The notes under the pieces were generated by a model. That model was not told where the DNA came from. It made no database searches and saw nothing but the letters and a program-made list of their open reading frames with translations. The position numbers and the translations under genes were made by a program. From Flavisolibacter ginsengisoli DSM 18119 (lineage in GTDB: Bacteria > Bacteroidota > Bacteroidia > Chitinophagales > Chitinophagaceae), in NCBI RefSeq assembly GCF_900129295.1, contig NZ_FQUU01000006.1, forward strand, positions 62,001 to 126,000: DNA of 64,000 bases, read 5' to 3'. Shown here piece by piece: positions 9,386-19,934 of the stretch; the first letter of the stretch is position 1, and each line of letters starts with the position of its first letter.

Positions 9386-10876
9386 ATGCAAGGCTATATT
9401 ATAGGATTGGATATAGGGACAGGAAGCACCAAAGCTGTGGCTGTTAATTTCCAGGGAGAAATCATTGGCAGCATTCAAGCATCTTATACGATTTTACAGG
9501 AGGATAGCCAAAAAGCAGAACAAGACCCACAAGTTTTACTGAATGCTTTTTATTCATGTATCAGGCAGATGATAGTGCAAATGAAAGATATGCCATTGGC
9601 TGTTTCTTTAAGCAGTGCTATGCATAATATTATGGCTGTAAATGAAAAAGGAGAACCAATATCGAACCTTGTAATTTGGTCAGATAGCCGTAGTACGGAG
9701 ATAGCAAAACTATTGCGAAAGGACAAGGCTGGTCAATCTATTTACATGGCTACGGGTACTCCCCTACATGCCATGTCACCACTTTGCAAGATCATCTGGT
9801 GGAGAGAAAATCAAAAAGATATTTTTACAAAAGCTCATAAGTTTATTTCTATTAAGGAATATATATGGTATAAATTATTTAATGAGTTTATTATTGATCA
9901 CTCCATTGCTTCCGCTACAGGTTTATTTAATATTGAAACCCTATCCTGGAATTCCGAATCCCTGGCGATAGCTCAAATTAATTCCAATAAATTATCCTTT
10001 CCTGTACCCACTGATCATTACAGAAAAGGTATTTCAACTGAAGCCTGTAAATTATCAGGACTTACTTCTTTAATCCCTGTTTGCATTGGAGCCAGTGATG
10101 GATGCCTTGCTAATCTTGGTACTAACTCATTAAAGGAAGGTGTTGCAGCTATTACTATAGGTACAAGTGGGGCCGTGCGCATTGCCTCGCGCTTGCCAAT
10201 ACGCAATCCCGCCACCATGAGTTTTAATTATATACTTGATAATGAATATTTTATTTGTGGCTATCCAATCAATAATGGTGGAAATATAATGGAGTGGCTT
10301 ATGCGGGATTTCCTTGATAATCAGGTAAGTGGACCCGACCAGTATGCAAGTCTTTTTGACATGATACACAAAATTCCTGCAGGTAGTGAAGGACTTATTT
10401 TTCTTCCCTACATTTTTGCAGAGCGTGCCCCGATTTGGGATGAAGAAGCATCCGGTGTATTTATAGGCATTCGAAGTAAGCACACAAGAGCTCACTTTAT
10501 TAGGGCCATTATTGAAGGTGTTTGTTATGCATTAAAAAATGTTCTGGAATTAATTGAACTTTCATCATCTGAGGTAAAGGAAATTCATGCCAGTGGAGGC
10601 TTTATAAAGTCAAATGACTGGGTGCAACTACTTGCTGATGTTACCGGGAAGCCTATTGTAATAGTTGAAAGAGAAGATGCATCTGCAATTGGGGCTGCCT
10701 ATTTAGCATATAGATTATTAAGTATAAATAATGAGAATTTTACAACACACGAAAACAGGTTAATAAATCCTCATAAATCTAATACTAAGGAGTACTTTAA
10801 ATTCTTCCAGGTTTATAAGACAATATATCCAGGAGTCCAGGAATCTATGCACCTGCTTTATAAAAAAGTAAACTAA
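9386..10876 (+). CDS. gntK: Gluconokinase, FGGY family
   Basis: The 496-residue FGGY-type kinase phosphorylates D-gluconate with ATP to 6-phosphogluconate in the cytoplasm. The N-terminal phosphate-binding motif GLDIGTGSTK is at residues 7-16. The middle carries the sugar-binding FGGY region (GASDGCLANLGTN, ITIGTSGAVR), and the C-terminal ATPase domain carries ASGGFIKSNDWVQLLADVTGKP. Length matches the family. It lies four bases upstream of a GntP-type permease, which strongly supports gluconate among the FGGY substrates. No Edd/Eda genes are adjacent, so the product probably enters the pentose phosphate route or a pathway encoded elsewhere. Confidence 0.88.
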   Translation: MQGYIIGLDIGTGSTKAVAVNFQGEIIGSIQASYTILQEDSQKAEQDPQVLLNAFYSCIRQMIVQMKDMPLAVSLSSAMHNIMAVNEKGEPISNLVIWSDSRSTEIAKLLRKDKAGQSIYMATGTPLHAMSPLCKIIWWRENQKDIFTKAHKFISIKEYIWYKLFNEFIIDHSIASATGLFNIETLSWNSESLAIAQINSNKLSFPVPTDHYRKGISTEACKLSGLTSLIPVCIGASDGCLANLGTNSLKEGVAAITIGTSGAVRIASRLPIRNPATMSFNYILDNEYFICGYPINNGGNIMEWLMRDFLDNQVSGPDQYASLFDMIHKIPAGSEGLIFLPYIFAERAPIWDEEASGVFIGIRSKHTRAHFIRAIIEGVCYALKNVLELIELSSSEVKEIHASGGFIKSNDWVQLLADVTGKPIVIVEREDASAIGAAYLAYRLLSINNENFTTHENRLINPHKSNTKEYFKFFQVYKTIYPGVQESMHLLYKKVN

Positions 10877-10879
10877 CAG

Positions 10880-12175
10880 ATGGTTATCATAACAGTCTTG
10901 GCAGGGATCATAATTTTAGTAGCATTAATAATACTGAAGGTAAATCCAATGTTAGCGTTATTACTGGTTTCTATAATTACTGGATTATTATTAAAAATGC
11001 CATTAAGTAAGGTTATAATTTCCATTAATAATGGAATTGGCAATACCCTTGGAGGTACTGTAATGATACTGGCCCTTGGGGCCATGCTTGGAAAATTAGC
11101 CGAGGAAAGTGGTGCAGGGCAAAAACTCGTTCTAGCTCTGGTTAAGATATTTGGTACGAAATATATTGCATGGGCAGTTTTACTTACCGGGATTATTGCA
11201 GGAATACCATTATTCTATAATGCAGGATTTGTAATACTAATACCGCTGGTTTTTGCCATAGCTTCCACACTGAACTACCCATTACTTATGTTGGGGATCC
11301 CCATGGCTGCAGCATTATCGATAACGCATGGATTCTTACCTCCCCATCCTGGACCTGTAACACTTGGTACTATCTTCCATGCTAACATTGGTAAAACTTT
11401 ATTATACGGAATGCTTATTTCTGTTCCAACAGCGATAATTGCAGGTATATTGTTCCCAAGGCTTATTAAAGCTAACAGAATCAGGGTGCAACCCAATATC
11501 AATTTTTCCTTAAAGGAAACGACCGAGCTGCCATCTTTGACCAAAAGTATTTTGATTCTATTGGCTCCAGTTATTTTTATCAGCTGTGGTACTTTGGGAG
11601 TTTACCTTACCAGCAATGCTGTTGCATTAAGTATTCTTAATTTTCTACAGGAACCTACTATAGCATTACTACTGTCCCTGGCTTTAGCTTTTACTTTATT
11701 AAATTGGAACATTAACCACTTTATGAGTACAGGCATTGAAGGTATAAAAGCTATTACTATGATACTTCTCATTATAGCTGCCGGTGGTGCCTTTAAACAA
11801 ATATTACTCGACAGTAATATTGGGATGATCTTAAAAGATAGCACTGCTTCTATGCATTTATCTCCATTGTTTCTAGGGTGGTTAATAGCTGCCTTATTCC
11901 GTATAACGCTTGGTTCGGCCACCGTAGCTGCCCTGAGTGCATCGGGCATAGTGCTACCATTTATAACAGGAGGTATATCTGCAGAACTTATGGTATTATC
12001 TGTAGGTGCAGGGAGTTTAATGTGTTCACATGTTAATGATACAGGATTCTGGATGTTCAAAGAATATTTCGGTTTAAATCTAAAGGACACTTTTCGAACA
12101 TGGACGCTCATGGAGAGTATTATTTCGTTGCTCGGCTTGCTTTTTATTTTAAGTATTCAAGCTTTTATAGCTTAA
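10880..12175 (+). CDS. gntP: Gluconate:H+ symporter, GntP family
   Basis: The 431-residue polytopic inner-membrane protein has about twelve hydrophobic segments. Family motifs include GITAG-type segments, HGFLPPHPGP near residue 150 (a hallmark of GntP permeases) and LGSATVAALSASGIVLPF near residue 350. It imports gluconate or a related sugar acid with protons. It follows gntK by four bases, so the two form an operon. The start ATG at 10880 leaves a short N-terminus directly entering the first helix, as is usual for the family. Confidence 0.9.
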   Translation: MVIITVLAGIIILVALIILKVNPMLALLLVSIITGLLLKMPLSKVIISINNGIGNTLGGTVMILALGAMLGKLAEESGAGQKLVLALVKIFGTKYIAWAVLLTGIIAGIPLFYNAGFVILIPLVFAIASTLNYPLLMLGIPMAAALSITHGFLPPHPGPVTLGTIFHANIGKTLLYGMLISVPTAIIAGILFPRLIKANRIRVQPNINFSLKETTELPSLTKSILILLAPVIFISCGTLGVYLTSNAVALSILNFLQEPTIALLLSLALAFTLLNWNINHFMSTGIEGIKAITMILLIIAAGGAFKQILLDSNIGMILKDSTASMHLSPLFLGWLIAALFRITLGSATVAALSASGIVLPFITGGISAELMVLSVGAGSLMCSHVNDTGFWMFKEYFGLNLKDTFRTWTLMESIISLLGLLFILSIQAFIA

Positions 12176-12472
12176 AACAAACCGAATACTGAATACATCT
12201 TAAGTCCAAAACCATTGTAACCATATCCCTTGGTTGCCGTAATCAATTATAATTAAAATCCGCTACAGTAAAGGATTACAACAGATATTCCCATCATTTG
12301 TATTGTGTAAAACAGGTAAAATTTGGCTTAAAAACCTTAAATGCATGCTCTAACTTTCCAATTCTACGATTTGCACCGCTATAACACAGAAGCCAAAGCG
12401 TTTTATAAGAAAACAGACTTTTTGGTATAGTTCTTTAAAAAAGGAGGTGTAAATTCGTAATACACTTCTATT
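12176..12472 (+). other. Intergenic region with a possible acetyltransferase remnant
   Basis: This stretch between gntP and the ilv leader has no intact gene of ordinary size. An ORF at 12341-12430 encodes 29 residues ending in NTEAKAFYKKTDFLV and stops at a TAG. The pattern N..A..FYKK.xF is the C-terminal signature of GNAT acetyltransferases, so this may be a decayed fragment. I could not choose a convincing promoter for the ilv operon here; several TA-N3-TTTG strings (for example near 12318 and 12373) deviate by one base of spacing. Confidence 0.3.
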
Positions 12473-12571
12473 ATGATAACAAAAGGCACAAATAATATAT
12501 TCTACTCTGTAATTAAAATTATAGTGGTAATTATTATTAGCGGCCTAACTGGAGGTGGATTTTATTTGTAA
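12473..12571 (+). CDS. ilvL: ilv operon leader peptide, Ile/Val-rich
   Basis: A 32-residue ORF too short for routine gene calling: ATG at 12473, TAA at 12569-12571. Residues 13-22 read VIKIIVVIII, nine of ten being Ile or Val, and Leu follows at residue 25. Eight Ile codons (ATA/ATT) and three Val codons occur in all. It sits 19 bases before an intrinsic terminator and directly upstream of the six-gene isoleucine-valine operon. This is the layout of ribosome-mediated attenuation known for E. coli ilvGMEDA. Stalling at the Ile/Val codons would leave 12552-12558 free to form the antiterminator. The symbol is given by analogy. The nearest Shine-Dalgarno-like string (12441-12448) is too far upstream to be the usual site. 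Confidence 0.8.
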   Translation: MITKGTNNIFYSVIKIIVVIIISGLTGGGFYL

Positions 12572-12617
12572 TTGAATAAATTAAAATACAAAACCCGCCT
12601 CAAAGGCGGGTTTTTTT
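12552..12617 (+). promoter_or_regulatory. Transcription attenuator of the ilv operon
   Basis: Two exclusive folds can be drawn. Terminator: AAACCCGCCT (12591-12600) pairs with AGGCGGGTTT (12604-12613) around a three-base loop, followed by TTTT. Antiterminator: GAGGTGG (12552-12558, within the leader peptide's Gly codons) pairs with CCGCCTC (12595-12601), seven pairs with one G-U, destroying the terminator's 5' arm. A ribosome at the leader stop (12569) would cover 12552-12558 and favour termination; one stalled at the Ile codons (12512-12538) would leave it exposed. A possible pre-emptor, CACTTC at 12463-12468, can pair with 12552-12557. Confidence 0.7.
12591..12617 (+). terminator. Intrinsic terminator between leader peptide and ilvE
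   Basis: A perfect 10-bp GC-rich stem with a CAA loop is followed by a T-run. It lies before, not after, the structural genes, only 24 bases upstream of the ilvE ATG, so it must be conditional if the operon is expressed from upstream. Confidence 0.85.
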
Positions 12618-12640: not shown

Positions 12641-13534
12641 ATGTATTACAACGAGAACACTATAGTTTATTACAATGGGTCCTTTATAAAAGCCTCTGAA
12701 GCCAGGGGAAATGTTTATGACCAAACATTACATTATGGTTATGGTGTGTTTGAAGGCATCAGGTCATATGCCACTGAAAGTGGAGTTCAAATATTCAAGG
12801 CTAAAGAGCATTTTGAAAGAATGAAATATTCATGCGAAGTCATGAATATTCCATATCCATATAATAATGATGAACTGGTAGCTATTTCTTACGAAGTTTT
12901 AAAACGAAACAACTTAGAAAATGCCTACCTGCGGCCCTTGGTTAGCTGTACTCCAAATATGTCGCTAACCAAAGCTAAGGGTTCACATTTACTTATTGCT
13001 GCATGGGAATGGGGCGCCTACCTGGGAGAAACATTATTACGGTTAAAGACTTCACCTTTCAGGAGAATTACCCCTGCCAGTTTTATGGTAGCAGCAAAGG
13101 TTTGCGGGCATTATGTAAACTCTATTTTAGCTACCCAGGAAGCAAAAGACAATGGCTTTGATGAAGCTCTATTATTAGATATGGAAGGATTTGTTGCTGA
13201 AGGGCCTGGCGCAAATATATTTTTAGAACAGGATAACATTTTATATACTCCTCAATTAGGCAGTATTCTTCCGGGAATTACCCGCGCAACTGTATTAGAG
13301 ATATGTAATGATTTAGGCATTGAGGCTATAGAAAAACAAATTTCCCCTGAAGAATTTAAAGGAGCAGATAGTGCTTTTTTCTGTGGGACTGCTGCAGAAG
13401 TTATTGGTATTGAATCATTGGATTCCATTCCTTTTAAGAAAAACTGGAAGGACAGTCTAGGGTTTCTTATCCAAAAAGCATATAAAGACCGGGTATTAGT
13501 TAAAAAATTTAAACAGGAAGTAGTTTCAGTATGA
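12641..13534 (+). CDS. ilvE: Branched-chain amino acid aminotransferase
   Basis: The 297-residue class IV PLP aminotransferase catalyses the last step of Ile, Val and Leu synthesis. Family signatures include [18 protein letters not shown] near residue 27 and the PLP-site block [28 protein letters not shown] with EGPGANIF downstream. An in-frame TTG at 12572 would place the terminator inside the gene, so the ATG at 12641, giving [13 protein letters not shown], is chosen. It is the first structural gene of the operon and its TGA overlaps the ilvD ATG (ATGA), indicating translational coupling. Confidence 0.93.
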
Positions 13535-15213
13535 CAGAAATAAACAAGTATAGCAAGGTATTGACACAAGACGAAACGCAACCTGCAGCCCAGGCAATGT
13601 TGTATGGAATTGGGTTGACGGATGATGATCTTAAGAAAGCCCAGGTTGGAATCGTTAGCATGGGATATGATGGGAACACCTGTAATATGCACCTTAATGA
13701 TCTGGCAAAGACCATTAAGCAAAGCGTGTGGGATAATGATCTTGTAGGTTTGATATTTAACACGATTGGTGTCAGCGATGGGATGAGTAATGGTACAGAT
13801 GGTATGCGTTATTCATTAGTAAGCAGGGATATTATTGCGGATTCTATTGAAACTGTTTGCGGTGCTCAATATTATGATGCAGTTATTGCTGTTCCTGGAT
13901 GTGATAAGAATATGCCCGGAAGCATAATTGCTATGGGACGTCTTAACAGGCCATCTATAATGGTATATGGCGGAACAATAGCACCCGGACATTATAATGG
14001 GCAAGATCTAAATATTGTTTCTGCCTTTGAAGCGCTGGGTCAGAAAATAGCCGGTACCATATCAGAAGATGATTTTAAATGCGTTATTAAAGCTGCTTGT
14101 CCAGGTGCAGGTGCATGTGGGGGAATGTATACTGCCAATACTATGGCGGCAGCTATTGAGGCATTAGGCATGAGTCTTCCTTTCTCTTCCTCCAATCCGG
14201 CAATTAGTGAGGAAAAAAAGAAAGAGTGCATGAATGCTGGAATTGCTATAAGGCATCTCCTTGAAAAAGATATCAAGCCTAAGGATATCATGACTTACGA
14301 AGCATTTGAAAATGCTATAACTATCGTGATAGCATTGGGCGGATCTACTAATGCTGTATTGCACCTGATTGCTATGGCTAAGAGCGTAGATGTTGACATT
14401 AGCCAAGATGATTTTCAGAGAATAAGCAACAAGGTGCCAGTATTAGCAGATTTTAAACCAAGTGGTAAATACCTGATGCAGGATCTTCACCAGCATGGAG
14501 GTATTCCATCTGTAATGAAATACCTCCTGGAAAAGAATTTCTTACATGGCCATTGTCTTACAGTAACTGGTAAGACCGTTTCAGAAAATCTAGCCGAGGT
14601 TCCTAACCTCGATTTTAATCAACAGAAGATTATCTACCCAACAAGTAATCCACTTAAAGCTACCGGCCATTTACAAATATTATACGGCAATCTAGCAGAA
14701 GGAGGAAGTGTGGCCAAAATAAGCGGAAAAGAAGGTGTAAGATTCGAAGGTCCTGCAAGAGTATTTGATGGAGAATTTGAGTTGATAAAGGGGATCAATT
14801 CTGGTAAGATAAAAGCGGGCGATGTAGTGGTAATCCGTTATGTAGGTCCAAAGGGTGGCCCTGGAATGCCTGAAATGCTTAAACCTACGTCAGCTATTAT
14901 AGGAGCAGGATTAGGTAAATCTGTAGCATTAATTACTGATGGCCGATTCAGCGGAGGTACCCATGGTTTTGTTGTAGGTCACATTACCCCGGAGGCCTAT
15001 GATGGTGGCACAATTGCGCTGGTAAAAGATGATGATAAGATAATCATAGATATTACCTCCAATACTATTACACTAGCCATTTCTGAAAATGAAATTGCTA
15101 AAAGAAAGGAGGATTGGAAACAACCTCCATTGAAAGCACAAAAAGGAATTCTTTATAAATATGCAAAACACGTTACAACAGCAGCAGAAGGATGTGTTAC
15201 TGACGCAAACTGA
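13531..15213 (+). CDS. ilvD: Dihydroxy-acid dehydratase
   Basis: The 560-residue iron-sulfur enzyme dehydrates 2,3-dihydroxy-3-methylbutanoate and its methylpentanoate analogue to the keto acids that IlvE transaminates. Visible signatures are [20 protein letters not shown] and [16 protein letters not shown], which supply the cluster cysteines, and [22 protein letters not shown] near the C-terminus. Length is normal. It overlaps ilvE by four bases and runs 53 bases into ilvB. Confidence 0.96.
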
Positions 15214-16900
15214 AGAAATCAGTGGATCAGAAGCAGTTCTTAAAGCCTTTATAGAGGAAGGTGTAGACACAATTTTTGGTTACCCCGGTGGAGCAATTAT
15301 GCCCATTTACGATGCTTTGTTTGACTTTGATAATAAATTGAAACATATTTTGGTCAGGCATGAGCAAGGTTCAATTCATGCTGCACAGGGATACGCCAGA
15401 ACTTCTGGAAAAACAGGTGTTGTTTTCGCCACTAGCGGCCCGGGGGCTACCAACCTTGTTACCGGACTGGCAGATGCCCAGATAGATAGCACACCAATTG
15501 TTTGTATAACTGGACAAGTTTTTGCGCACCTACTTGGTACTGATGCATTCCAGGAAACTGATATCATAAATATTACTACCCCGGTAACTAAATGGAATTA
15601 CCAGATAACTGATGCCTCAGAAATTCCCGCAGTTTTAGCCAAAGCTTTTTTTATAGCTGGCAGCGGCCGCCCAGGTCCAGTATTAATTGACATTACTAAG
15701 AATGCACAATTGCAGAAGTTTCAATTTGGTGGATATCAAAAATGCAATTTTATAAGAAGTTATAGACCGAAACCAGTTGTTAGAAAAGAGTATATTGAAA
15801 AAGCTGCTTCCCTGATCAATTCTGCTAAAAAGCCTTTTGTCATATTTGGACAGGGAGTAATATTGGGAAAAGCGGAAAAAGAATTCAAAGCTTTTATTGA
15901 AAAAACAGGTATACCTGCAGCATGGACCATAATGGGCTTGAGTGCTTTGCCATCAGATCACCCTTTAGGTGTTGGTATGTTAGGTATGCATGGCAATTAT
16001 GCACCAAATGTTCTGACGAATGAGTGTGATGTTTTGATTGCTGTAGGTATGAGATTTGACGACCGGGTAACAGGAAGATTAGATAAATATGCCAGGCAAG
16101 CCAAAATAATACATTTAGATATTGACCCCGCCGAGATTGATAAAAATGTAAAAACAACAGTTGCAGTATGGGGAGATTGCAAGGAAACCTTGCCACTACT
16201 TACTGAATTAACTGAAAATAAAGTATACCCGCAATGGCTGCAACGGTTTAAGGAATTGGAACAAGATGAAATAGATGCCTGCATTTATGATGAACTACAT
16301 CCTAAAACAGAGCAAATGACCATGGGTGAAGTTATTGATGTTCTAAATGAATTGACTAATGCCCAGGCTGTGATAGTAACGGATGTTGGTCAACACCAAA
16401 TGGTGGCTTGTCGTTACGCAAAATTTAAAGAGAGTAAAAGCAATATCACTTCAGGAGGATTGGGAACAATGGGCTTTGCTTTACCTGCTGCCATAGGAGC
16501 TAAATTAGGCGCCCCTGGAAGAACTGTAGTTGCAATTATTGGAGATGGTGGTTTCCAAATGACCATACAGGAATTAGGTACTATCATGCAATGCAACATA
16601 GATGTGAAACTTCTGATTTTAAATAATCAATTTCTAGGTATGGTAAGACAATGGCAGGAACTATTCCATAGCAAGAGATACTCTTTTGTAAACATTGAAA
16701 GTCCGGATTTTGTCCAGGTTGCTAAAGGTTACCGAATTCAGGGAAAATCCATATCTAAAAGAGAAGAATTAAAAAATTCGCTTAGGGAAATGCTTGAATA
16801 TAAAGGAAGCTATCTTTTGGAAGTAATGGTGGGGAAAGAAAATAATGTATTTCCAATGGTAGAAGCTGGCAGCAGCGTTTCTGATATACGCTTAAAATAA
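15161..16900 (+). CDS. ilvB: Acetolactate synthase, large (catalytic) subunit
   Basis: The 579-residue thiamine-diphosphate enzyme condenses pyruvate with pyruvate or 2-oxobutanoate. Motifs include [14 protein letters not shown], the catalytic-Glu block [15 protein letters not shown], the FAD-region [12 protein letters not shown], and the ThDP/Mg signature [14 protein letters not shown]...[12 protein letters not shown]. The chosen ATG at 15161 lies inside ilvD, a 53-base overlap; a later start would shorten a Gln-rich N-terminal tail that is not conserved. The regulatory subunit gene follows after six bases. Confidence 0.95.
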
Positions 16901-16906
16901 CTTGCA

Positions 16907-17497
16907 ATGGCAAAAGAAGAATACACTATAACTGTATACACTGAAAACCAGATTGGTTTATTGAATCGCATCGCCATAATTTTTTCGCGACGTAAGATCA
17001 ATGTAGAAAGCCTTAATACATCTCCTTCTGAAGTCCCAGGCATACACAGGTTTACCATCGTTATCCATGAAATGGAAGATATTGTACGGAAACTGGTACG
17101 ACAAATAGAAAAACAAGTTGAGGTTTTAAAAGCCTATTATAATACAAGTGATGAAATTGTATGGCAGGAACTGGCATTATATAAGGTGCCAACAAGTGAA
17201 ATTACAGAAAAAGTAAAGGTAGAGCGGTTATTAAGGCAATATGGAGCTAAAGCAGTAGTAATCAGAAAAGATTATACAGTTTTTGAAACAACAGGTCACA
17301 GGGAGGAAACAGATGGGTTGGTAAAGGTGCTTGAACCCTATGGATTAATTGAATTTGTACGTAGTGCCAGGGTTGCCATAATAAAAGGAAGCAGAGGCTT
17401 TCATGAAAAACTCAAAGAATTTGAATCAATGGCAGAAGGCCCTGAACTGGTTGAAAATGAATTCCTGGCACACCAGGAAGAAGTTTTTGATATTTAG
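16907..17497 (+). CDS. ilvN: Acetolactate synthase, small (regulatory) subunit
   Basis: The 196-residue protein carries an N-terminal ACT domain (YTITVYTENQIGLLNRIA through GIHRFTIVI, about residues 5-52), the domain that binds valine for feedback inhibition. A longer C-terminal domain (residues 80-170) resembles that of the IlvH/IlvN group. It starts six bases after ilvB. Length is slightly above the E. coli IlvH size because of an acidic C-terminal extension. Confidence 0.93.
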   Translation: MAKEEYTITVYTENQIGLLNRIAIIFSRRKINVESLNTSPSEVPGIHRFTIVIHEMEDIVRKLVRQIEKQVEVLKAYYNTSDEIVWQELALYKVPTSEITEKVKVERLLRQYGAKAVVIRKDYTVFETTGHREETDGLVKVLEPYGLIEFVRSARVAIIKGSRGFHEKLKEFESMAEGPELVENEFLAHQEEVFDI

Positions 17498-17554: not shown

Positions 17555-18685
17555 ATGGCAAAATTAAATTTTGGGGGTGTCGAAGAAAATGTTGTAACAA
17601 GGGAAGAATTTCCTTTATCAAAAGCAAGGCAGGTACTAAGCAATGAAACTGTTGCTGTAATAGGCTATGGCGTTCAGGGTCCTGGCCAGGCATTAAATCA
17701 AAAAGATAATGGAATCAATGTGATTGTTGGACAGCGGCGCAATTCAAAATCCTGGGATAAAGCAGTAAAAGATGGCTTTGTTCCTGGCGAAACCTTGTTT
17801 GATATAGAAGAAGCATTACAAAAGGGAACTATTATTTGCTATTTATTAAGTGATGCTGCCCAAATTCAATTATGGCCCACCGTAAAAAAGCATTTAACTC
17901 CCGGTAAGGCATTGTATTTCTCTCATGGCTTTGGTATTACTTACAGTGACCAAACAGGTATTATTCCTCCCCCAGATGTAGATGTATTTTTAGTAGCGCC
18001 AAAAGGATCAGGAACCTCTTTAAGAAGGATGTTTTTACAAGGAAGAGGATTAAATAGCAGCTATGCAATATTCCAGGATGCGACCGGGCGTGCATTTGAA
18101 AGAGTTATCGCATTAGGAATTGCTGTTGGAAGTGGTTATTTGTTTGAAACCGATTTCCGAAAAGAAGTTTACAGTGACCTGACTGGAGAACGCGGAACAT
18201 TGATGGGAGCTATACAAGGGATCTTTGCTGCTCAATATGAAGTTTTACGTTCAAAAGGACATACGCCTTCTGAAGCATTTAATGAAACGGTAGAGGAACT
18301 AACGCAATCCTTAATGCCTTTAGTGGCTGAGAACGGCATGGATTGGATGTACGCTAATTGTTCTACTACTGCACAAAGGGGTGCACTGGATTGGTGGAAA
18401 AGGTTTCGTGACGCAACGTTGCCAGTATTTAATGAGCTATATGAAAGTGTGGCCACAGGAAAAGAAGCTGCCAAATCGATAGAAAGTAATAGTAAACCTG
18501 ATTATCGGGATAAGCTTGAAGAAGAATTGAAGGAGTTGCGTGAAAGCGAAATTTGGCAGGCAGGCAAAACAGTAAGAAGCTTAAGGCCTGAAAACCAGGA
18601 GCCCGTTGCTCCAGGAAGCGCTGGTGACAATTTTGAAAAGAAATTACAAAAAGTAAAATTCTCCTCCCCTTTATATCGTGATTGA
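17555..18685 (+). CDS. ilvC: Ketol-acid reductoisomerase
   Basis: The 376-residue enzyme isomerises and reduces acetolactate or acetohydroxybutyrate with NAD(P)H. The nucleotide site reads VIGYGVQGPGQALNQKDNG and the loop after it GQRRNSKSW, variants of the usual GYGSQGHAHA and QRR forms. Metal and substrate residues follow in ALGIAVGSGYLFETDFRKEVYSDLTGERG. The sequence is of the longer type seen in Bacteroidota. A 57-base gap separates it from ilvN, the largest inside the operon, and its end overlaps the ilvA start by eight bases. Confidence 0.93.
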   Translation: MAKLNFGGVEENVVTREEFPLSKARQVLSNETVAVIGYGVQGPGQALNQKDNGINVIVGQRRNSKSWDKAVKDGFVPGETLFDIEEALQKGTIICYLLSDAAQIQLWPTVKKHLTPGKALYFSHGFGITYSDQTGIIPPPDVDVFLVAPKGSGTSLRRMFLQGRGLNSSYAIFQDATGRAFERVIALGIAVGSGYLFETDFRKEVYSDLTGERGTLMGAIQGIFAAQYEVLRSKGHTPSEAFNETVEELTQSLMPLVAENGMDWMYANCSTTAQRGALDWWKRFRDATLPVFNELYESVATGKEAAKSIESNSKPDYRDKLEEELKELRESEIWQAGKTVRSLRPENQEPVAPGSAGDNFEKKLQKVKFSSPLYRD

Positions 18686-19934
18686 AACAACAACAATAAA
18701 AGTAAATCTTGACTTCAGGGAAGCTTCCAAAAGATTAAGTACTGTAGTTGTTAAGACTCCATTGGCTTACAGCAGAAGTCTTTCAAAAAAGTATGGTGCA
18801 AACATATATCTTAAAAGAGAAGACCTTCAAATTGTAAGGTCTTATAAACTCAGGGGAGCTTACAATATGTTGAGTAGTTTACCCCAAGAGCAATTAAATA
18901 AAGGTGTTGTTTGTGCAAGTGCTGGAAACCACGCCCAGGGGTTCGCATACAGTTGTAAAAAGCTGGGCGTTAAAGGTGTAGTTTTCATGCCTATCATTAC
19001 ACCATTGCAAAAAGTGCAGCAGACAAGGTTTTTTGGTGAAAACTTTATAGATATCAAATTAACGGGTGACACCTTTGACGATTGTGCAACTGCAGCTAAA
19101 GCATTCACTGTATCTGAAGGGTCTACTTTTATCCCTCCATTTGATGATTATAAGATCATTGAAGGCCAGGGAACTGTTGGTGTAGAGATCCTGGATGAGT
19201 TGTCAGAGATAGATTATTTGTTTGTACCAGTTGGAGGAGGCGGATTGTGTTCAGGCGTTGGAAGCTATTTTAAAATGTATTCTCCCCAAACTAAACTGAT
19301 AGGGGTAGAACCTGAAGGTGCTCCTTCAATGAAACAAGCATTACTCAATGGTTTTCCAGTTACCCTGGATAATATTGACCGTTTTGTAGATGGTGCAGCT
19401 GTCAAAAGAGTGGGTAACATTACCTTTTCAATTTGCAAAGAAGTTTTGCATAAAATGCACACAGTGGCTGAAGGAAAGGTATGTTCGACAATTTTAAAAT
19501 TGTATAATGAAGATGCAATAGTTGTTGAACCCGCAGGTGCATTATCTATTGCTGCCCTGGACGATTTTTCAAATGAGATAAAAGGGAAAAATGTTGTTTG
19601 TATCATTAGTGGCAGTAATAATGACATTGACAGGATGCAGGAGATCAAGGAACGATCGCTACAATATGAAGGGCTTAAACATTATTTTCTAATTAGGTTT
19701 GCTCAAAGGCCAGGTGCATTAAAAGAGTTTGTGAATTTTGTATTAGGGCCAAATGATGATATTACCAGGTTTGAATACATGCAAAAACATAATAAAGAAA
19801 CTGGCCCAGCCTTAGTTGGAATTGAATTACAATCGAGAGAAGATTATGAAAGCCTGCTCAAAAATTTAAATAAATATCATATCAACTTTACAGAACTGAA
19901 TAAAGATGACAACCTTTTCGGATATATAGTCTAA
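18678..19934 (+). CDS. ilvA: Threonine ammonia-lyase, biosynthetic
   Basis: The 418-residue fold-type II PLP enzyme deaminates threonine to 2-oxobutanoate, the entry to isoleucine. The PLP lysine lies in REDLQIVRSYKLRGAYNM, the phosphate-binding glycine loop is PVGGGGLCSGVGSYF, and a single ACT-like regulatory domain occupies about residues 330-418 (YFLIRFAQRPGALKEFVNFV). The start is GTG at 18678, overlapping ilvC by eight bases. One regulatory domain gives the 400-420 residue form rather than the 500-residue E. coli form. Confidence 0.93.
   Translation: MIETTTIKVNLDFREASKRLSTVVVKTPLAYSRSLSKKYGANIYLKREDLQIVRSYKLRGAYNMLSSLPQEQLNKGVVCASAGNHAQGFAYSCKKLGVKGVVFMPIITPLQKVQQTRFFGENFIDIKLTGDTFDDCATAAKAFTVSEGSTFIPPFDDYKIIEGQGTVGVEILDELSEIDYLFVPVGGGGLCSGVGSYFKMYSPQTKLIGVEPEGAPSMKQALLNGFPVTLDNIDRFVDGAAVKRVGNITFSICKEVLHKMHTVAEGKVCSTILKLYNEDAIVVEPAGALSIAALDDFSNEIKGKNVVCIISGSNNDIDRMQEIKERSLQYEGLKHYFLIRFAQRPGALKEFVNFVLGPNDDITRFEYMQKHNKETGPALVGIELQSREDYESLLKNLNKYHINFTELNKDDNLFGYIV

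Follow-up and report, generated by a model that had tools for sequence, protein, structure and literature searches.

A putative ribosome-mediated attenuator in front of the ilvEDBNCA operon of Flavisolibacter ginsengisoli and its counterparts in other Bacteroidota

The locus and its features

The window, i.e. the whole stretch of 64,000 nucleotides that was analysed, carries on its forward strand six ilv genes in the order ilvE-D-B-N-C-A. They are preceded by a short reading frame rich in Ile and Val codons and by an intrinsic terminator. Four segments of this leader, named here regions 1 to 4, can pair in alternative ways (denoted 1:2, 2:3 and 3:4). The features are as follows.

12429 to 12436, forward strand: element AGTTCTTT upstream of the promoter box, probably part of the promoter; GTTCTTT or GCTCTTT recurs in relatives
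12450 to 12457, forward strand: putative Bacteroidota -7 box TAAATTCG, agreeing with TAnnTTTG in 5 of its 6 informative positions; transcription predicted to start at about 12462
12463 to 12470, forward strand: region 1, segment of the 5'UTR beside the start codon, able to pair with region 2 (12550-12557)
12473 to 12571, forward strand: leader peptide reading frame MITKGTNNIFYSVIKIIVVIIISGLTGGGFYL, 32 codons plus stop, seen from its translation and from similarly placed leaders in relatives
12509 to 12538, forward strand: control codons, residues 13-22 (VIKIIVVIII), Ile or Val at 9 of 10 positions
12550 to 12558, forward strand: region 2, segment with the Gly codons at the end of the leader, partner of region 1 (with 12550-12557) or of region 3 (with 12552-12558)
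12590 to 12617, forward strand: intrinsic terminator, 11-bp hairpin (12590-12600 with 12604-12614), 3-nt loop, T tract to 12617
12594 to 12601, forward strand: region 3, core of the terminator 5' arm, partner of region 2 (with 12595-12601, antiterminator) or of region 4
12604 to 12614, forward strand: region 4, terminator 3' arm, pairing with region 3
12641 to 13534, forward strand: ilvE, branched-chain aminotransferase, ATG at 12641 (NCBIfam NF005146 and TIGR01122 above cut-off)
13531 to 15213, forward strand: ilvD, dihydroxy-acid dehydratase (TIGR00110 above cut-off)
15161 to 16900, forward strand: ilvB, acetolactate synthase large subunit (TIGR00118 above cut-off)
16907 to 17497, forward strand: ilvN, acetolactate synthase small subunit (TIGR00119 above cut-off)
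17555 to 18685, forward strand: ilvC, ketol-acid reductoisomerase (TIGR00465 above cut-off)
18678 to 19934, forward strand: ilvA, threonine ammonia-lyase (TIGR02079 above cut-off)

The initial annotation had described a leader of 32 codons with nine Ile or Val residues among residues 13-22, located just before ilvE-D-B-N-C-A. Sequence and translation agree with this description, and all six genes pass the curated NCBIfam cut-offs. Its terminator hairpin is indeed perfect, with a predicted energy of -16.3 kcal/mol; the stem length of 10 bp and the gap of 19 bases given there have to be corrected to 11 bp and 18 bases after the leader stop codon, the outermost A-U pair having been omitted.

Upstream of the leader and on the same strand two further genes are encoded: a kinase resembling gluconokinase, for which the best model, gntK, stays below its cut-off, and a symporter of the GntP type, which exceeds the model cut-off. 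The symporter reading frame ends at 12175, leaving about 415 nt to the hairpin. The leader peptide matched no family in NCBIfam, and in the 64-kb window no Rfam 15 covariance model reached its gathering score. A corresponding Rfam scan of 18 related loci gave a single match, to an unrelated Flavo-1 RNA, and revealed neither a T-box nor a His, Leu, Thr or Trp leader. This Flavo-1 RNA (RF01705) exceeds the gathering score at positions 9447-9546 of a Pedobacter ilv locus (L075). A Shine-Dalgarno candidate in the window, GGAGGTG at 12443-12449, was rejected: it is 23 nt away from the ATG, just 5' of the putative -7 box and outside the predicted transcript. It repeats the Gly-codon segment of the leader, which is treated here as chance.

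Occurrence in the phylum

Both strands of 1,484,712 bases, comprising the best 80 of 589 ilvD loci plus the window, were scanned for reading frames that contain an Ile/Leu/Val-rich run of ten codons and are followed within about 65 nt by a hairpin plus T-run. With at least nine Ile, Leu or Val in ten codons all 22 matches are located on the sense strand and upstream of ilvD, no farther than 1,500 nt away; if eight suffice, this holds for 29 of 31 matches. In stretches upstream of ilvD or ilvE a second, looser detector recovered 68 elements in 64 loci, namely in 34 of the best 80 ilvD loci, the window, 16 of the 30 loci L081-L110, 12 of the 40 loci L111-L150 and L158. The 70 phylum-sample loci L081-L150 are part of the listed sample places. 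From L081-L110, where the window's own locus is one of the 30 and is not counted as an element, the detector was given the 16 loci with an earlier match, and from L151-L180 it was given L158 only. L034, L120 and L175 were removed by hand as spurious, and the doubtful L033 and L111 are retained among the 68. With the same looser detector no element was found in 46 of the 80 ilvD loci, including all 11 titled Mucilaginibacter and both titled Sphingobacterium; some of these 46 end short upstream, and a separate scan shows a leader in L019, L026, L040 and L060.

In the phylum sample genomes with the element carry seven family labels. The group names used here (Chitinophagaceae type, flavobacteria-like, others) are labels taken from few named records and are not based on a tree. 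Across groups the leader ends diverge strongly (e.g., ILVVVVIIPALHGGG, IIVVVIISHQYGG, LLLLNILLGKKPGCF, LVIIRVIGITYRPGKALC and VVIILVILILKPIGAMMM) and so do the terminators. Within the window's genus an ilvE match below 1e-100 occurs in 8 of 18 genomes (13 of the 18 being at least 90% complete), and in two of these eight, the window's genome and G158, the leader stands directly before ilvE. In three others of the eight (L154-L156) the sequence before ilvE resembles, by eye, the end of leuB, so that the operon start seems to have moved. One member of the genus (G033) contains an orphan leader of the ilv type, MSGKRLYSIAAFITAIIIVVVIVIPALHGGENYL, together with a terminator, on the reverse strand at 717-821 of L321 (G033 C1:2560000-2568600); the six ilv proteins gave no match in the 8.6 kb around it. 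The next long reading frame on the strand of this orphan leader encodes 425 aa.

A covariance model was built from an alignment (A1) of 25 of the 29 listed elements, four Chitinophaga elements being excluded. In this alignment 6 of the 11 stem pairs of the terminator show double changes that preserve pairing. Searched against 146 family genomes, the model had a match at E <= 0.01 in 99 and at E <= 2e-5 in 81 of them. The model itself contains neither ilvE nor ilvD, and among its best 30 loci all 30 have an ilvE or ilvD match that starts at most 600 nt downstream. A held-out set was derived from 30 loci by removal of L292, L310 and L320, with no reading frame plus hairpin detected, and of L295, L314 and L316, which are copies of training peptides. 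The remaining 24 elements, in which L303/L311 and L291/L294 are close relatives and L306 is near L003, were all found via the leader model, and the 5'UTR is not part of this model.

In four loci of groups other than the Chitinophagaceae type two Ile/Val-rich leader-plus-terminator units are arranged in series upstream of ilvD:

L093, 173-226 and 293-355: tandem leaders
L101, 198-263 and 341-400, reverse strand: tandem leaders
L119, 1338-1391 and 1447-1518, reverse strand: tandem leaders
L056, 2634-2699 and 2776-2823: tandem leaders

Antiterminator and terminator as exclusive folds

In the window a helix of 7 bp, one of them G-U, is possible between 12552-12558 and 12595-12601. The energy of this own-arm duplex is -13.8 kcal/mol (p = 0.03 with 200 shuffles), which is moderately improbable when the window is taken alone. 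Much more can be learned from the comparison of all 68 elements, for which the last leader codons plus at most 14 bases past the stop codon were tested against the 5' half of the terminator hairpin. The mean duplex energy with the own arm is -14.46 kcal/mol versus -8.28 kcal/mol for dinucleotide-shuffled leader ends and about -8.9 kcal/mol for swaps between unlike terminators. Own-arm pairing reaches p <= 0.05 singly in 52 of 68 elements and is not significant in the other 16. If the arms are permuted among the 68 elements, the summed energy averages -707.5 (sd 21.5), and the observed sum of -983.6 was reached in none of 20,000 permutations. In addition, the leader end pairs better than the segment just upstream of it in 66 of 68 elements. 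Since own-arm pairing exceeds both the permutations and the upstream segment, leader end and terminator arm have changed together. The same preference is seen in the 24 held-out elements (-16.95 versus -8.25 for mononucleotide shuffles).

Within A1 (25 sequences) no compensatory double change was found at any of the seven 2:3 pairs, where pairing is kept to 89.7% and is nearly invariant; the covariation of 2:3 therefore rests on the comparison between groups. In window RNA starting at 12540 the predicted probability of 2:3 is 0.996 before the 3' arm of the terminator exists, and that of the terminator is 0.989 afterwards, so that the decision would be a kinetic one. The antiterminator is exclusive with the terminator and, judged from these sequence comparisons, apparently kept by selection. 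The pairing of the Gly codons with the terminator 5' arm, postulated at the outset from the window alone, is thus recovered as a 7-bp helix that recurs in relatives in the form of exclusive folds. The initial annotation had also named missing conservation in relatives as the outcome that would speak against it; leader, control codons, terminator and alternative pairing all recur there and change together.

Ribosome geometry and control codons

Over the 68 elements a median of 16 nt separates the last control codon from the pairing segment, and the start of the latter is a median of 11 nt away from the stop codon. With these spacings, and with a ribosome footprint of generally known size, a ribosome at 12536 would just clear 12552-12558 and one at the stop codon (12569) would cover this segment. 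The geometry fits a scheme in which a stalled ribosome frees the antiterminator arm and a terminating ribosome covers it, and the medians agree with the ribosome stalling that had been proposed for the window.

The control runs also differ in codon choice from ilvD, as seen when all 68 leaders are compared with the ilvD genes of those 34 of the best 80 loci that have an element; the P values of this comparison take no account of relatedness. Ile is encoded by ATT in 270 of 323 cases (635 of 1,480 in ilvD) and Val by GTC in 91 of 190 (110 of 1,208 in ilvD). The latter preference varies among groups: GTC makes up 42 of 58 Val codons in the control runs of the flavobacteria-like group, and the Chitinophagaceae type has GTG 55 times and GTC 38 times among 114 Val codons (57 and 20 of 90 in the held-out set). 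In the window itself the control run contains GTA twice, GTG once and no GTC. Among the 30 tRNA loci inspected out of 43 matches in its genome there are tRNA-Val genes with GAC and with TAC anticodons. One reading of the codon preference is that starvation-sensitive codons were chosen, another is that it reflects RNA structure.

Predicted short 5'UTR and possible pairing of the start region

The TAnnTTTG box of Bacteroidota promoters spans positions -12 to -5 (excerpt of PMC9723704). A box with this spacing would place the transcription start of the window near 12462 and leave a 5'UTR of about 11 nt, the median 5'UTR being 24 nt in Flavobacterium psychrophilum (excerpt of PMC9723704) and 32 nt in Bacteroides thetaiotaomicron (excerpt of PMC7366714). 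Boxes that agree with this motif in at least 5 of the 6 informative positions begin 22-30 nt ahead of the leader ATG in 25 of 31 Chitinophagaceae-type elements. The best box of the 24 held-out elements starts 22-33 nt before the ATG, 23 of them having at least 5 of 6 positions and one having 4. In the other groups such a box was matched in only 4 of 37 elements, and the short-5'UTR promoter was therefore rejected as a feature of all groups. Of the 31 Chitinophagaceae-type elements, 27 have GTTCTTT or GCTCTTT no more than 75 nt away from the leader start, and its spacing to the -7 box varies (roughly 19-26 nt as judged by eye); this AGTTCTTT-like element is perhaps a -33 element or the site of a regulator.

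The start region is a further candidate partner of the leader end. In the predicted window RNA 12462-12589 the probability of 1:2 is 0.86-1.0, with p = 0.07 for the window alone. For the 31 Chitinophagaceae-type elements the mean energies are -12.73 kcal/mol for the own partner, -10.63 for swapped and -8.51 for shuffled ones, with none of 20,000 permutations reaching the observed value; singly, 1:2 is significant in only 12 of the 31. Similar values were obtained for the 24 held-out elements (own -13.0, swapped -11.1, shuffled -8.7; 0 of 20,000 permutations), and the complementarity of the leader end to the start region peaks at the ATG. Shuffling was mononucleotide in these tests as well as in those on his and trp leaders and on a classical region 1. 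No 1:2 pairing was detected in the 37 elements of other groups, nor in the his and trp leaders described below. From these energies, pairing of the start region with the leader end is a possible third fold of Chitinophagaceae-type elements; the initial annotation names neither this fold nor the short 5'UTR. As it uses antiterminator bases, an untranslated leader could default to termination.

A classical region 1 built from the control codons was also considered and found no general support. In the flavobacteria-like group region 2 finds its best partner within the control run in 20 of 27 elements, but at energies hardly better than those of shuffled sequences (-7.78 versus -6.94).

Leaders of his, trp and other operons

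The genome of the window contains two further leaders of this kind. Before hisG (L185) a His-run leader, VKKILVHIHHHVLALG, includes VHIHHH and begins with GTG or TTG, not with ATG; before a gene of the trpE type (L232) a Trp-run leader, MVQLINKQWWWHTNSNGVL, includes WWW. Each is followed by a complementary terminator, and by eye a -7-like box is seen 7-8 nt upstream of each start codon, which would make both mRNAs almost leaderless. In the relatives searched 15 his loci yielded 12 elements, and 12 more came from the 12 trp loci that were included out of 15, the hairpin of L231 being spurious. Own-arm pairing amounts to -15.1 versus -8.3 (shuffled) for his and to -14.0 versus -9.3 (shuffled) for trp. 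Many of these leaders likewise have such a box 7-8 nt ahead of their start codon (by eye, uncounted), which would correspond to a 5'UTR of about 3-4 nt.

Leu-run leaders before leuA and Thr/Ile/Met-run leaders before homoserine dehydrogenase were tried as candidates and rejected, as only one weak and unconvincing reading frame (L204) came up when 14 leuA-type loci, out of 26 retrieved, and 24 loci of the homoserine dehydrogenase type were scanned.

Proposed mechanism and alternative explanations

We suggest that the element very probably controls the ilvEDBNCA operon as a ribosome-mediated transcription attenuator. Transcription would start about 11 nt before the leader AUG, and a ribosome would load without a Shine-Dalgarno site and translate the Ile/Val-rich leader. 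With ample charged Ile- and Val-tRNA this ribosome would reach the stop codon and cover region 2, so that 3:4 forms and transcription terminates near 12617. If Ile or Val were short, the ribosome would stall in the control run with its front edge just short of region 2, free region 2 would capture the terminator 5' arm (2:3), and RNA polymerase would continue into ilvE. If no ribosome were loaded, 1:2 might form and leave the terminator free, which is the least certain step.

It could be objected that the hairpin is the ordinary terminator of the upstream gluconate kinase and permease genes with a chance reading frame in front of it, as these genes lie on the same strand and A+T-rich DNA should often contain Ile/Val-rich frames. 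Such an origin is extremely unlikely given the distance of about 415 nt from the symporter end at 12175 with a promoter-like box in between, the position of 22 out of 22 strong matches (80 loci plus the window) upstream of ilvD on the ilvD strand, and the ilvE or ilvD gene that follows each of the best 30 model matches within 600 nt. Nascent-peptide arrest would provide a different explanation, with a leader peptide that stalls the ribosome on a metabolite and an Ile/Val run that is part of the arrest sequence; metabolite-responsive arrest is known from TnaC-type leaders, and many Chitinophagaceae-type leaders do share the end ...IIPA.HGGG, one form of it in relatives being IIPALHGGG. However, the window lacks the IIP motif (IISGLTGGG), and in other groups unrelated ends (SHQYGG, GKKPGCF, YRPGKAL, KPIGAMMM) are found in the same architecture, where codon run and pairing persist. 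Moreover, his and trp loci in the window's genus carry His and Trp runs instead, and the Gly codons are accounted for by RNA pairing. We regard peptide arrest as very improbable.

The role of 1:2 within the attenuator is less clear-cut. This helix may mainly shut leader translation in finished transcripts without favouring termination, in which case the switch would have only two states, 2:3 versus 3:4; we consider this a serious possibility, if somewhat on the improbable side. In the E. coli trp leader region 1 is covered by the ribosome stalled at the control codons, whereas the region 1 discussed here is the initiation region and is left uncovered by a ribosome stalled in the control run. 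Furthermore, the unmasked window RNA up to 12603 has 2:3 and not 1:2 as its minimum-energy fold, 1:2 returns only in the finished RNA, and no 1:2 was detected in other groups or in his and trp leaders. Against a two-state switch stands the near certainty of 1:2 in the RNA that ends at 12589, when region 3 has yet to be transcribed. As 1:2 and 2:3 share 12552-12557, 1:2 must compete with the antiterminator for as long as it exists. An additional action in trans of the terminated leader RNA or of the peptide, for which the roles proposed for rnTrpL and peTrpL of Sinorhizobium meliloti are a precedent (excerpt of PMC7298713), could be seen in the complete orphan leader of G033, located about 508 kb from the ilv operon of this genome. 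But there is one such orphan only, which may be a relic of operon rearrangement, and a trans-acting role of the window's leader is hardly to be expected.

For the phylum as a whole we tentatively propose a joint view, whose probability we judge to be just short of even. Attenuation would be a general, retained control of ilv, his and trp operons in Bacteroidota. In Chitinophagaceae it would operate via almost leaderless leader mRNAs, with a first gate at which ribosome loading at the 5' end races against the closing of a 5'-end helix; this helix would conceal the start region together with the antiterminator arm. Elsewhere in the phylum, some genomes would use two attenuators in series.

Comparison with known attenuators

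The mechanism of attenuation itself is classical and not new. In the trp, his, thr and ilvGMEDA operons of E. coli a leader with control codons is combined with an exclusive antiterminator and terminator, and transcription terminates when charged tRNA is plentiful. These attenuators have Shine-Dalgarno-driven leaders, a longer 5'UTR and control codons within region 1. In contrast, the Chitinophagaceae type has its initiation region as candidate region 1, and its region 2 is part of the reading frame. Classical attenuation needs a leading ribosome close behind RNA polymerase, and the occurrence of leaders before three operons (ilv, his, trp) in one genus, and of the ilv leader under seven family labels, suggests coupling of transcription and translation. 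The same spread suggests a prompt start of leader translation without Shine-Dalgarno pairing. According to the covariance model the element is present in more than half of the family genomes sampled (81 of 146), and in the window and 18 related loci it was matched by none of the Rfam 15 families.

Candidate attenuators were reportedly listed also for Bacteroidetes/Chlorobi in the comparative genomics of amino acid operons by Vitreschak et al. in 2004. Within the same phylum leader-peptide attenuation has been suspected in F. psychrophilum (PMC9723704), a case resembling ours that the excerpted text describes without leader sequence, operon name or pairing. Small reading frames reminiscent of leader peptides were reported for B. 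thetaiotaomicron in a paper that also describes Bacteroidota as lacking Shine-Dalgarno sites (excerpts of PMC7366714). The almost leaderless his and trp leaders predicted for the window's genus are similar to trpL of S. meliloti, where a leaderless leader-peptide mRNA is part of a transcription attenuator; this alphaproteobacterial example differs in concerning trp only and in the trans-acting roles claimed for it (excerpt of PMC7298713).

Among the papers considered the closest likeness is offered by ilvBNC of Corynebacterium glutamicum, a leader attenuator that was studied by mutation (PMC11857589, excerpt, as for all details given here). Its short leader contains Ile, Val and Leu codons and has an ATG that is 1 nt away from the transcription start. 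Three alternative hairpins can form, the first of which shields the ribosome landing site and frees the terminator. The system belongs to another phylum, and its leader has 15 residues. Unlike in ilvBNC, the antiterminator arm of the window is formed by the leader's own C-terminal Gly codons, and the 5'UTR is predicted to have about 11 nt. The precedents in Flavobacterium and Corynebacterium (excerpts of PMC9723704 and PMC11857589) show that it was overstated to present the locus as an outpost of a gammaproteobacterial mechanism; the attenuator in Bacteroidota as such is well supported. The added value of the present case is the anatomy of an attenuator in a phylum said to lack Shine-Dalgarno sites.
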